Below, in pieces: positions 41,280-46,805 of a stretch of DNA of 64,000 nucleotides. The position numbers were made by a program, and so were the translations under genes. Each line of letters starts with the position of its first letter. The first letter of the stretch is position 1. Below the pieces are notes generated by a model. That model was not told the origin of the DNA and ran no database searches. It saw only the letters and a list, made by a program, of their open reading frames with translations. Origin of the DNA: Clostridia bacterium (GTDB lineage Bacteria > Bacillota > TC1 > UBA5767). The stretch lies in assembly GCA_016887505.1 (NCBI GenBank), contig CP069393.1, positions 558,001-622,000 on the forward strand, given 5' to 3'.

Positions 41280-41330
41280 ATGCCATCGATTTTTTTAATG
41301 ATAAACATTTGACTTAATTGTCAAACATAC

Positions 41331-41374
41331 ATACCCAAAGAGAGAACCCATTCGTGGGTTTTTTCTTTGGGTAT
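41331..41374 (+). terminator. Nested terminator after BMP gene
   Basis: ATACCCAAAG (41331-41340) pairs with CTTTGGGTAT (41365-41374), enclosing AACCCA-TTCG-TGGGTT and a T tract. A second small repeat TTTGAC/GTCAAA lies just upstream (41308-41325). Confidence 0.85.
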
Positions 41375-41503
41375 GGAGTATCGATAGGCTGGAGAAGATA
41401 AAATTCAAATGCTTATTATATATTATTCACCTAGCTTGTGGTGTATAATTTAACTAGTAGTTTTGGAAAATGAACTGTTTACAATTCAATATTAGGAGGC
41501 GCA

Positions 41504-42637
41504 ATGAGAGTAATACATATAAGTGATCTGCACCTTGGAAAACGAGTGAATGAATTTCCCATGATGGAAGACCAAAAGCATATCATAGAACAAATATTGG
41601 CTATTGCTGAAGATGAAGAAGTGTCGGCAGTTATTATAGCGGGTGATATATATGATAAATCCTTGCCTTCTGCAGAAGCCATTGAATTGTTTGACCAGTT
41701 TTTGACAAATTTGGCAGAAAAGAAAATCCAGGTCTTTGGAATAAGCGGAAATCACGACAGTGCGGAAAGGGTTGGCTATTGTGCTGAAATCATGTGCCAC
41801 CAAGGCATCCATTTATGCAAACCGTATAATGGTAAATTGCAGTGTATTGAAGTGATGGATAAATTTGGTCCATTGAATATTTACCTAATGCCATTTATTA
41901 AACCAGCCAATGTTCGTAGGTTTGATGAGAATATTGAAATTGGAAGCTATGAAGATGCTGTAAAGTCGGTTTTGCGAAGTGCAAACATTAATCCTGAGAG
42001 TCGAAATTTGCTACTTGCTCATCAATTTGTAACGCACAATGGTGTTCAACCCGAACGAAGCGACTCAGAAGTGATTTCTGTTGGCGGATTGGATAATATT
42101 GATTCATCCGTTTTTAAGGACTTTGACTATGTGGCTTTGGGACATATTCACCGACCACAAAACGTGGGAAGACCTACAATCCGCTATTCTGGCTCACCTC
42201 TTAAATATTCATTTTCAGAGGTGAATCATAATAAATCAGTTACGATCGTGGAATTAAGGGAAAAAGGAACTGTTTTGCTGAAAGAGGTAGCACTGACCCC
42301 AATACGGGATATGAAAAAGCTCAAGGGATCTATCACAGAACTTCTTTCAAGTGATTTTTATGAATCAATCAATACAAACGATTATTATCATATTACCCTA
42401 ACAGATGAAGCTGTGATGGATGCCATAGGTAAACTTCGCATGGTATATCCAAATATTATGAGGCTTGAATTTGAAAGCAGTAGTGTAGAAGATTCAAGGA
42501 AGAGCGTGGCAATGGAGAAGATTGAATTATCCAATACATTAGAGATATTTGAAGAATTTTATGAGAGGCAAAATGGTACAAAAATGGATCAAACAAAAAG
42601 AGATATTATTGTTAAGCTTCTGAGTGAGGAGGTTTAG
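41504..42637 (+). CDS. sbcD: Exonuclease subunit SbcD (Mre11-like)
   Basis: A 377-residue nuclease subunit that with SbcC opens hairpins and processes DNA ends. Phosphoesterase motifs in order: ISDLHLGKR (5-13), AGDIYD, SGNHDS and GHIHRP. AGGAGG precedes ATG 41504. The next gene starts two bases after its stop. Confidence 0.94.
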   Translation: MRVIHISDLHLGKRVNEFPMMEDQKHIIEQILAIAEDEEVSAVIIAGDIYDKSLPSAEAIELFDQFLTNLAEKKIQVFGISGNHDSAERVGYCAEIMCHQGIHLCKPYNGKLQCIEVMDKFGPLNIYLMPFIKPANVRRFDENIEIGSYEDAVKSVLRSANINPESRNLLLAHQFVTHNGVQPERSDSEVISVGGLDNIDSSVFKDFDYVALGHIHRPQNVGRPTIRYSGSPLKYSFSEVNHNKSVTIVELREKGTVLLKEVALTPIRDMKKLKGSITELLSSDFYESINTNDYYHITLTDEAVMDAIGKLRMVYPNIMRLEFESSSVEDSRKSVAMEKIELSNTLEIFEEFYERQNGTKMDQTKRDIIVKLLSEEV

Positions 42638-42639
42638 CC

Positions 42640-45408
42640 ATGAAACCAATTCATCTGACAATGAGTGCATTCGGGCCTTATGCGGGAACAATTGAAGTAC
42701 CCCTATCACAGCTCGGCGAAAGTGGGCTTTATCTGATTACTGGTGATACAGGTGCCGGTAAGACGACCATCTTTGATGCGATTGCTTTCGCCTTGTATGG
42801 TGAGGCAAGTGGTGACACGAGAGAAAGTGAAATGTTTCGCAGTGATTTTGCGAAACCAGATAAGAAGACATTTGTCGAACTAGAATTCCTTTTCAGGGGA
42901 GAAGAATTTAAAGTTATTCGCAATCCACGATATATTCGTCCAAAGAAAAATGGTTCTGGAATGACGACAGAAAATGCCGATGCAACGCTCATTTATCCAA
43001 ATGGCAAGACCATAACCGGCAGTGGTAACGTGACTAGTGAAGTATCTGAATTATTGGGTTTAGACCGCAACCAGTTTAGTCAGATTGTGATGATTGCTCA
43101 AGGCGATTTTTTGAAATTACTACATGCTAATACTAAGGATAAGGGAGAAATATTTCGTAAGATTTTTAATACGGAGAGTTTCAAAAATTTTCAAGATAGT
43201 CTTAAAAATGAAGCCGCTGCATGGGAGAATAAATACCAAGAATTGAAGTCTAGAATTCTTCAAACCATGAATCAGGTTTCCATAACAGAAGAATTGCCTG
43301 AATTTACTCAAATTGAAGCAATCTTGCAAGAGGGAACGATCCATAATTTAGACAATATGCTTGCAATACTTGCTAATTTGGATACTCGAGATAGTGTAGC
43401 TATGGAGAATATCAGACTAGATGTACAGACGCTGGACTCCCAGATTAGATTGTTAGATGAAAAGATAGGACGACTAGCGGAAGAGGAAAGAGTCCAAAAG
43501 GAAATTGAAGAAACGACAATATATTTACGAACTCTGGTTGAACAAAGAAATGGTGCAAAGGAAACCTATGAACAAGCAAAGACAAGAATACCAGAATTGG
43601 AATCCTTGAGGACAGAAATTACAACCCTTAAAAATCATGAACCGGAGTATACTCGTCTTGCTAGTAAACAAGCTGAACAGAAAACTATTGAACGTTCCTT
43701 ATTTGAAGTCGAAAAGAATATTGAAATATTGGATACCCATTTGAAATCCTACGAAAAATCGGTAGTGGAGATTCGTAACGAGATAGAGAATATTGGTGAA
43801 GTCGGTGAAGCAATCGAGCATAACATGGCTAGCAAAAAGGCCTTACAAAGAACGCTAGATGAACTAGAGCAAATTGGAGTACTTCATAAAGATTGCCAAA
43901 AGGTGGATTTAAAACTGAAAGTTCAACAGGAGCAGTACAGGCAGGTTGAGGCAATTGAAAAGAGTGTAAACCAGAAGTATCAAAAGGCTTATCATGACTA
44001 TTTGGCCAATATGGCTGGTACCTTGGCGGAAAACCTACTTGAAGGAGAACCGTGTCCTGTTTGTGGTGCGACAGAACATCCAAATTTAGCCCATAAAGCC
44101 AAAGAAATACGAACAAAAGAACAAATTGACCAAATGCAGAAAGAGGCTCAAAAAGCGCTAAGGGATTTACAACAACACAGTGAAAAAACTGCTGCTTCAA
44201 GAAAAGAAATGGAAGTATTAAAGGATCAATTGGTGAAACGCACCAAACAAGTATTGGGTATCCAAGATTTGGAGCAAATAGAAGAGCAACTTCCGAATAC
44301 TGTAAAAGAAACAAGAGACAGTTTGAATAATTTAGATGAAATAATACAAGGATTAGAAGCAAGACAGGTTAGAAGAAAAGATTTACGAAAGCAACTTGAA
44401 GAACTGGGGAAACGAATTCAAGAAAATCAAGATAAATTAGCATCTTTGACCAGTCAAAAAAATGAATTAAAACAACAAAATAGCCTATTATCGGGTCAGG
44501 TGGCGACAGTTCAGGAATCGTTGCGGTATGAAAGTATTGAAATGCTTATGAGTATCATTCAGAAAAATGAGGATACATATTCAAAACTGCAGAATGATTT
44601 TACAAAAGCAGAAGAAAGCTTTCGACAGCTAGAACAAAAAATTGATACCCAAAATGCTAGATTGGAAACGTTGCGAGAACAGATTGCTGAAGAAAAATCG
44701 GATAATCTAGAAAACTTAACTGTAAACCGGAATAAGAAAAAAGAAGAAAGAGATCTTCTCTTGGCCAAGCAGGCAGAGGTAGGGGAACGTTTGAGCCGAA
44801 ATAAAGATGTGCGTAAGCAACTATATTCTCAAAAAGACTCCATAGTAGAAACTGAGACAAATGCATTGCTATATATAAACTTATCAGAAACAGCCAATGG
44901 AAATCTAAGTGAGAGACGAAAGATTGCATTTGAGCAGTATGTTCAGTCAGTATATTTGGAACGCATTCTTTTATTGGCCAATCAAAGATTAAGCCAAATG
45001 ACTTCTGGTAGATACGAGCTAAGAAGAAAAATTGAAGCATCAAATCTTAGAAGTAAATCAGGTCTAGATATCGATGTATTGGATAGACATACTAATAAAG
45101 TCAGAAGTGTAAAAACTTTATCTGGTGGCGAATCATTTAAAGCTTCCTTAGCCATGGCATTGGGAATGTCTGATGTTATTCAACAATATGCTGGTGGAGT
45201 ACAGGTGGAAGCAATGTTCGTCGATGAAGGTTTTGGTTCACTTGATCAAGAATCACTGAATCAAGCTGTGAATACATTGATTCAATTGACAGATAGTAAT
45301 CGCATAGTAGGTATTATTTCTCATGTATCAGAATTAAGAGAGCGAATAGACAAAAAAATTATAATACAAAAGGGGCTACAGGGTAGTACCATCCGGATTG
45401 AGCAATAA
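42640..45408 (+). CDS. sbcC: Exonuclease subunit SbcC (Rad50-like)
   Basis: A 922-residue SMC-like ATPase. Walker A GDTGAGKTT (about 34-42), long coiled coils, the zinc hook CPVCG at 472-476, the ABC signature LSGGESFKASLAMALG and Walker B MFVDEGFGSLD. It is on the short side of the family (often 1000 or more residues), mainly by shorter coiled coils. It is followed after 98 bases without a terminator by a JetD-like gene. Confidence 0.94.
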   Translation: MKPIHLTMSAFGPYAGTIEVPLSQLGESGLYLITGDTGAGKTTIFDAIAFALYGEASGDTRESEMFRSDFAKPDKKTFVELEFLFRGEEFKVIRNPRYIRPKKNGSGMTTENADATLIYPNGKTITGSGNVTSEVSELLGLDRNQFSQIVMIAQGDFLKLLHANTKDKGEIFRKIFNTESFKNFQDSLKNEAAAWENKYQELKSRILQTMNQVSITEELPEFTQIEAILQEGTIHNLDNMLAILANLDTRDSVAMENIRLDVQTLDSQIRLLDEKIGRLAEEERVQKEIEETTIYLRTLVEQRNGAKETYEQAKTRIPELESLRTEITTLKNHEPEYTRLASKQAEQKTIERSLFEVEKNIEILDTHLKSYEKSVVEIRNEIENIGEVGEAIEHNMASKKALQRTLDELEQIGVLHKDCQKVDLKLKVQQEQYRQVEAIEKSVNQKYQKAYHDYLANMAGTLAENLLEGEPCPVCGATEHPNLAHKAKEIRTKEQIDQMQKEAQKALRDLQQHSEKTAASRKEMEVLKDQLVKRTKQVLGIQDLEQIEEQLPNTVKETRDSLNNLDEIIQGLEARQVRRKDLRKQLEELGKRIQENQDKLASLTSQKNELKQQNSLLSGQVATVQESLRYESIEMLMSIIQKNEDTYSKLQNDFTKAEESFRQLEQKIDTQNARLETLREQIAEEKSDNLENLTVNRNKKKEERDLLLAKQAEVGERLSRNKDVRKQLYSQKDSIVETETNALLYINLSETANGNLSERRKIAFEQYVQSVYLERILLLANQRLSQMTSGRYELRRKIEASNLRSKSGLDIDVLDRHTNKVRSVKTLSGGESFKASLAMALGMSDVIQQYAGGVQVEAMFVDEGFGSLDQESLNQAVNTLIQLTDSNRIVGIISHVSELRERIDKKIIIQKGLQGSTIRIEQ

Positions 45409-45506
45409 TTTGGGGATGATTTTCTAAGCCTGTTGAAGTACAATGTTTACATGGTCAAGGAGCAAGATGCCAGCTATAGTTAGTATTCGGAAAGAGGAGT
45501 CCATAC

Positions 45507-46706
45507 ATGCCATCTAACATTGAAAAGATTATTCTGAACGCGTTACTAGATAGATTCGAAAGAAGGAAAAAGGGATCGACCAGACGTGTTATGCTGAAAC
45601 CGGATCAGTATGTTGAATACGGACTAGACTACCTAGTAGATAAAGAAGTCTTTCATAAGGCTGTTTACGATTTGGAGAAACAAGGATATATAGAATTAGA
45701 ATGGAACCCAAACAAAAAGTTTAAGTCGTTGAGCTGTATCGTTTTAAGTAAAGATATGATTCAGAAGAGTTACGGCTATTTGGGAAGATTACCAAAAGGT
45801 ACTAAAAATGAGGAGTATTTAAAGGAACTGAAGGGCGTACTTGGTCGCTTTCATTCAGACTGGATTCGGAACTTTATTATAGACTGTATTGATAAGTTGG
45901 AAAATGAGGGGAAATTGAGTGGCTCCTTATCAGGTGATGAGAAGATTCGTAAAGAGTTTTATCAGCTGCTAAAAGCTGTGGAAGATGGAGTTGAAACTAG
46001 TAGCCGGTATTTAAGTACGGCGCTCTATGGGGACAGTAAGACACTGGAGAGATATCATTTATCAAAACTGGTCACAGTAGCTAAAAAGTATCTTGATTTA
46101 GATTTAGATAAAAAGCGGGTGATGGATTTTTTGGGCATTCAAGACCATCCTACTGAAATACTAATTAGGGGAGGGTTCCGCTATAAACTTGAAAAAGATA
46201 TCATCATTGATACAGCGATACATACTTTTGGCACATCAATCAATGCCCATGCAGTTCAGATTATGGAACCCTTATCTATATCCTGTGATCGAATTTTAAC
46301 CATCGAGACCAAAACGACCTATTATGAGTATATCAAGAATGCTAAAGAGGGTGAACTGGTCATTTATTTAGGTGGCTATTATGGGAAGACGACCCGGGAT
46401 TTTTTAAATAAATTTAGAAAAATTATTTCTGCTGACACCCCGCTCTACCATTGGGGTGATGTGGATCCAGGTGGTCTTAGATTTTTTATCAAGCTTTGTG
46501 AAATTCTGAACCGACAAGTACTGCCGGTAAAGATGGACCGTGAGACATATCTTAAATATCACAGCTTGGATCAAGTTCTTACAAATGAACAAATTAAAAA
46601 AGCAGAGGAACTCAAAAAGAGCCCCTGGGCTAGGGCAATTGAAGATTCCATAGATGTGCTTGTGGAAAATAAGTTTCGCTTAGAACAAGAGCGAATTCCA
46701 CTATAG
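45507..46706 (+). CDS. JetD-like protein (DUF3322/DUF2220, Wadjet nuclease family)
   Basis: A 399-residue protein related to the JetD subunit of Wadjet anti-plasmid systems, a topoisomerase VI-like Toprim nuclease. The C-terminal half shows the conserved Toprim-type acids: Glu267 in LTIETKTT and Asp318/Asp320 in GDVDPGG, plus the YLGGYYGKTTRDF segment. The N-terminus is a winged-helix-type domain (FHKAVYDLEKQGYIELEW). JetA, JetB and JetC are absent; the gene lies directly after sbcD-sbcC instead. GAAAGAGGAG precedes ATG 45507. Confidence 0.85.
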   Translation: MPSNIEKIILNALLDRFERRKKGSTRRVMLKPDQYVEYGLDYLVDKEVFHKAVYDLEKQGYIELEWNPNKKFKSLSCIVLSKDMIQKSYGYLGRLPKGTKNEEYLKELKGVLGRFHSDWIRNFIIDCIDKLENEGKLSGSLSGDEKIRKEFYQLLKAVEDGVETSSRYLSTALYGDSKTLERYHLSKLVTVAKKYLDLDLDKKRVMDFLGIQDHPTEILIRGGFRYKLEKDIIIDTAIHTFGTSINAHAVQIMEPLSISCDRILTIETKTTYYEYIKNAKEGELVIYLGGYYGKTTRDFLNKFRKIISADTPLYHWGDVDPGGLRFFIKLCEILNRQVLPVKMDRETYLKYHSLDQVLTNEQIKKAEELKKSPWARAIEDSIDVLVENKFRLEQERIPL

Positions 46707-46775: not shown

Positions 46776-46805
46776 GGACCATCCATAGAAGGATGGTCCG
46801 TTTGA
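46776..46805 (+). terminator. Terminator after JetD-like gene
   Basis: GGACCATCC-ATAGAA-GGATGGTCC followed by a GTTTGATTT tail. Confidence 0.65.

Follow-up and report, generated by a model that had tools for sequence, protein, structure and literature searches.

In two species of one genus, the sbcDC locus carries an intact jetD gene that is maintained by selection but stands alone, apart from the rest of a Wadjet operon. JetD is usually found in the four-protein, plasmid-killing Wadjet machine, and work on it has treated it as the executioner within an SMC complex. We came upon the locus in a window of 64,000 nucleotides (positions 558,001 to 622,000 of contig CP069393.1) from a Clostridia bacterium whose genome (G000) is a single contig of 2.56 Mb and 99.2% complete. 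Because this intact JetD is encoded behind sbcCD in two species without JetB or JetC, it probably now serves a new function, possibly in partnership with SbcCD.

The sbcD-sbcC-jetD unit and its JetD

ORF calling placed sbcD, sbcC, and a type-I jetD head to tail on the + strand, bracketed by two terminators, with the coordinates and order that an initial annotation of this DNA had given for a JetD homologue behind sbcD-sbcC. The features of the unit, in window coordinates, are as follows.

41330..41375, + strand: terminator stem-loop 3' of bmp, -33.8 kcal/mol over 70 nt; upstream border of the unit
41442..41449, + strand: putative extended -10 TGTATAAT of an sbcD promoter, by consensus resemblance only
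41504..42637, + strand: sbcD, 377 aa, Mre11-type nuclease
42640..45408, + strand: sbcC, 922 aa, Rad50-type ATPase with zinc hook
45432..45453, + strand: 22-bp noncoding block GTTGAAGTACAATGTTTACATG, putative jetD promoter or operator
45507..46706, + strand: jetD, 399 aa; winged-helix region 2-96, linker R167/S170/K178, Toprim 213-399
46776..46799, + strand: terminator stem-loop 3' of jetD

SbcD has Metallophos and SbcD_C domains and the motifs DLH at residue 8, GDIYD at 47, GNHD at 82, and GHIH at 213. SbcC has AAA_23 and SbcC_Walker_B domains, with Walker A (GDTGAGKT) at residue 35, the zinc-hook CPVC at 472, LSGGE at 827, and Walker B (MFVDE) at 859. This SbcC was the only SbcC match in G000, and the sbcCD of the unit is therefore probably the ordinary housekeeping repair nuclease of the cell. 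The flanks of the unit consist of household genes, with no defense island among them.

The jetD product matched PADLOC JetD1 (E = 1e-79, residues 4-397) and Pfam JetD_C PF09983 (83 bits), and it is the single JetD of the genome. An alignment with JetDs of JetABCD operons, to any of which it is about 30% identical or less, shows that the acidic Toprim residues E267, D318, and D320 are retained, as are the terminal E393-Q-E395 and the conserved linker residues R167, S170, and K178. These results support the earlier assignment of a JetD homologue with intact Toprim acids. DNA cutting by MksG depends on E236 and D279, and E349/E351 are its proposed nucleophiles (PMC10123090). We provisionally equate these residues with E267, the DxD, and the EQE of JetD, by pattern and not by residue-level alignment. 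The jetD product presumably cuts DNA.

An AlphaFold2 model of JetD built with 14 sequences (pLDDT 77, pTM 0.51) has a winged-helix N-terminal part, a confident Toprim part, and a low-confidence linker at residues 161-215. In Foldseek and VIA-align comparisons, modeled residues 213-399 matched Top6A (Z 15-18) and Spo11 (Z 14.9), and the whole chain matched Corynebacterium glutamicum MksG 8b7f (Z 13.7) and Pseudomonas aeruginosa JetD 7til (Z 12.9) with a high rmsd because the domains are differently placed. The N-terminal part of the model matched SarA/MarR-type winged helices. The predicted fold is thus the winged-helix/CAP plus Toprim fold of Topo VI A/Spo11, with the Toprim half giving the strongest match. 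The sequence profile of JetD recovered Top6A, Spo11, and MksG (Topo VI A/Spo11 at 1.9e-6), and a direct phmmer search of the PDB with JetD returned spurious matches only.

We searched the G000 content by family and by profile for the rest of Wadjet. JetB (KITE, PF13835) was absent from G000 and from the genome of the second species (G002), with a control genome (G013) positive in the same run. The best JetC (MukB-like SMC) matches scored 19 bits in G000 and 17.9 bits in G002, compared to 978-1610 bits in four control genomes with JetABCD loci. The JetA (kleisin) model PF11855 had no match in G000, but since it fails on the known JetA of G013 as well, JetA is not directly excluded; no jetA-like gene lies immediately upstream of jetD. 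The initial annotation had noted that JetABC is missing from the locus, and for JetB and JetC this now extends to the whole genome. The possibility that JetABC is hidden elsewhere in G000 was discarded on the JetB and JetC searches, the JetA model being uninformative on this point.

Conservation and distribution

The second species is a "Clostridia bacterium" MAG (DAOUPV010000004.1), where the locus (L019, the same record as L035 and counted once) has the order bmp-sbcD-sbcC-jetD and glutamate dehydrogenase, followed by ADP-ribosylglycohydrolase, mutY, and FMN oxidoreductase as in G000. The glutamate dehydrogenase gene (L019:11765-13099), which separates jetD from the ADP-ribosylglycohydrolase gene, is an insertion peculiar to the second species. 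Even with this insertion directly behind jetD, both species retain the sbcCD-jetD order. The whole neighborhood is colinear between the two genomes, however, so the shared order may be plain inheritance, and adjacency alone is weak evidence.

Protein identities between the two species were 81% for bmp, 75% for JetD, 71% for adprgh, 70% for SbcD, 68% for ggdef, 63% for mutY, and 60% for SbcC, which puts JetD behind bmp alone among the seven neighborhood genes and above both SbcD and SbcC. Identity at fourfold-degenerate sites was 0.23-0.36, which is near random; the value to set beside the 75% of JetD is 33%. dN was 0.165 for jetD, 0.209 for sbcD, and 0.341 for sbcC. Saturated synonymous change together with a low dN indicates that jetD is under strong purifying selection. 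Within JetD, residues 156-220 are 94% and residues 261-300 are 90% identical between the species.

We surveyed 398 genomes of the phylum together with genome-contig matches and read 57 distinct type-I JetD loci. JetC adjoins JetD in 47 of them, another 8 have a JetD that is solitary or lies at the edge of a contig or gene, and the 2 that adjoin SbcCD are those of the two species. Since most type-I JetDs belong to JetABCD operons, the sbcCD-linked JetD was probably derived from one. Outside the genus, the sbcCD-jetD order was found in none of the 398 phylum genomes, in none of 13 other genome-contig matches, and neither in IMG/VR nor in phages; a plasmid search returned no such order and 2 distant matches at 26% identity. 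A second sampling round around two other centers gave no JetD nearer to the sbcCD-linked one. We therefore rejected the idea of a widespread type. The adjacency, which the initial annotation had allowed might be seen only here, recurs in the second species and, in our survey, nowhere outside the genus. A literature search, with subscription journals mostly outside its reach, found no description of an sbcCD-JetD pairing.

A congener (G001) has no jetD. Its mutY-FMN oxidoreductase locus (L135) is without the upstream bmp-sbcD-sbcC-jetD block. A very different sbcCD, 25-27% identical, lies elsewhere in the G001 genome (L034:6369-10871, - strand; SbcC of 1083 aa, 25% identical); in this lineage, SbcCD is apparently free to be replaced or lost. 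A sister-family genome (G009) carries a related sbcDC (L032) with no jetD behind it. A gain of jetD in the ancestor shared by these two species would fit, and so would its loss in G001.

In a quick JetD tree, which has long-branch problems and does not firmly place the sbcCD-linked clade, this clade has a stem of 1.16 changes per column and tips of 0.24 and 0.11. A long stem with short tips is the pattern expected from a one-time adaptation followed by constraint. Two genuinely solitary JetDs elsewhere in the sample have lost the active site and lie on very long branches, with the changes D318S, D320S, E393K, and E395S in L031 and E267A, D318S, E393D, and E395D in L092. These losses set the sbcCD-linked JetD apart from an unpartnered JetD drifting to a noncatalytic role. 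The gene for the acid-less JetD-like protein of L031 (10779-12086, - strand) lies beside MarR and solute-binding genes and that of L092 (1337-2683, - strand) beside sigma54 activator and molybdopterin oxidoreductase genes; both proteins are possibly JetDs turned regulators.

The phylum also holds weak PF09983 matches of about 350 aa, which have recurring neighbor families with lengths near 510 and 250 aa and, in some loci, 1494 aa. By their layout, these loci resemble Wadjet type III, and we rejected them as relatives of the sbcCD-jetD order. The 1494-aa, SMC-sized protein is encoded in two such type III-like loci (L114:3388-7872, - strand; L119:1738-6222, + strand), the gene order of which departs from that of the others; in L114, the large gene adjoins the JetD-like gene.

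Transcription signals around jetD

The stem-loop at the upstream border of the unit is matched in the second species, with an 18-nt identical run, AGAACCCATTCGTGGGTT, in L019, and the putative extended -10 upstream of sbcD also occurs there. A stem-loop follows jetD in the second species too. Between sbcC and jetD, as the initial annotation had indicated, we found no terminator-like site on the + strand in either species; one follows jetD at 46776-46799. JetD is presumably coexpressed with SbcCD.

The 22-bp block between sbcC and jetD is identical in the second species (L019:10305-10326) at saturated synonymous divergence, and it occurs once in G000. It precedes the jetD start by 53 bp in G000 and by 49 bp in the second species. 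No identical run in the four coding regions checked is as long (the maximum is 20, in bmp). The block is also more than double the shuffled intergenic maximum (10) and includes a -10-like TACAAT and the near-palindrome ATGTTTACAT. Its identity in both species suggests that jetD probably has its own promoter or operator as well. From these signals, jetD is probably both the last gene of the sbcDC unit and separately controlled.

What JetD may do beside SbcCD

We tentatively favor, at a little under an even chance, a reading in which a JetD freed from Wadjet cooperates functionally with SbcCD, a coupling that we infer from gene order alone. In the ancestor of the two species, a type-I JetD, a Toprim endonuclease of the Top6A/Spo11 fold, would have split from JetABC and would have been kept as an active DNA-cutting enzyme encoded last in the sbcD-sbcC transcription unit. 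The JetD dimer would cut both strands of DNA that is sharply bent or constrained in some other way, and SbcCD would either recruit or license JetD at such DNA or process the ends that JetD makes, in functional parallel to Spo11 with Mre11-Rad50 in meiosis. Spo11 binds Mre11 physically and modulates the Mre11 nuclease (PMC11077076), and bending of the target DNA is common to the Top6, JetD, and Gabija nucleases (PMC13040014). In favor of this reading are the absence of JetB and JetC, the strong selection on a JetD that has kept its catalytic acids and linker residues where L031 and L092 have not, the Top6A/Spo11 matches of the model, the terminators that bracket the unit, and the gene order kept despite the inserted glutamate dehydrogenase gene. 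Counting against it are the conserved upstream element of jetD, which suggests partly independent expression, the colinear neighborhood, the confinement of the order to one genus, and the sbcDC of the sister-family genome G009, which has no jetD behind it. In other systems, moreover, JetD alone cuts only at artificially high concentrations (PMC10586767). The stronger proposal of a three-protein SbcCD-JetD machine, either a prokaryotic counterpart of the Mre11-Rad50-Spo11 break-maker or a plasmid defense with SbcC as its motor, is unlikely.

A role for JetD independent of SbcCD is almost as likely as cooperation. JetD would then be a solitary enzyme with its own job, e.g., as an anti-plasmid, structure-specific, or self-regulated stress nuclease. 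That its gene follows sbcC would be incidental, and SbcCD would be doing housekeeping. The 22-bp element conserved immediately ahead of jetD in the two species, the single SbcC match in G000, the lack of SbcCD adjacency outside the genus among the 57 type-I JetD loci, and the colinearity that weakens adjacency as evidence are all consistent with this. However, in both species terminators lie on either side of the three genes and not between sbcC and jetD, and the congener G001 is without both JetD and this type of SbcC.

It is improbable that the locus is a minimal Wadjet-like defense in which SbcC stands in for JetABC as the loop extruder and brings JetD to small DNA circles, and we know of no evidence for loop extrusion by SbcC. 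In favor of such a defense, SbcC belongs to the SMC-like ATPases, JetD cannot cut circles without a partner that acts as motor (PMC10586767), and JetB and JetC are absent. However, SbcC has a zinc hook and is without kleisin or KITE partners (PMC10586767), JetB with its known JetD contact (the IFDR motif, PMC10586767) is missing here, and the flanks hold no defense island.

We give little credence to the proposal that JetD is now mainly a DNA-binding regulator, acting through its winged-helix N terminus with the 22-bp block as a putative operator. The predicted N-terminal match to SarA/MarR-type winged helices and the single conserved block upstream of jetD itself would suit such a role, and the altered active sites of L031 and L092 indicate that such a path exists, but the active site is fully conserved here and canonical JetD shares the winged-helix/CAP plus Toprim architecture. 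Although the usual home of type-I JetD in JetABCD operons would suit a decaying remnant of a lost Wadjet operon, as the initial annotation had suggested, we rejected this reading as barely credible, given 75% protein identity at saturated fourfold sites with every catalytic acid intact and the different appearance of those solitary JetDs whose active sites are gone.

The locus poses the question of what activates JetD, which is conserved and catalytically intact here although JetB and JetC are missing. If SbcCD activates JetD, Top6A-fold nucleases would be driven interchangeably by SMC proteins of the Rad50 and MukB types, and the locus would offer a small bacterial system in which to model the Spo11-Mre11-Rad50 partnership. 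If SbcCD is not the activator, the locus would be a clean example of a Wadjet nuclease recruited to a new role.

Compared with Wadjet type I (JetABCD, MksBEFG), the JetD described here is a full-length homologue with the same winged-helix/CAP plus Toprim build and the same catalytic acids, but its genome is without JetB or JetC, its gene lies behind sbcDC, and it sits on a long stem branch. Compared with SbcCD, the bacterial Mre11-Rad50, sbcD and sbcC here have all the standard motifs in the usual order, but a Toprim nuclease gene follows them, which is not so in the sister-family sbcDC locus L032. The Toprim half of the JetD model matches Spo11/Top6A, and a Spo11-fold nuclease beside an Mre11-Rad50 pair recalls the meiotic partnership; however, the catalytic topoisomerase tyrosine is absent from the CAP domain of JetD (PMC10586767), and the likeness is one of functional analogy and not of membership.
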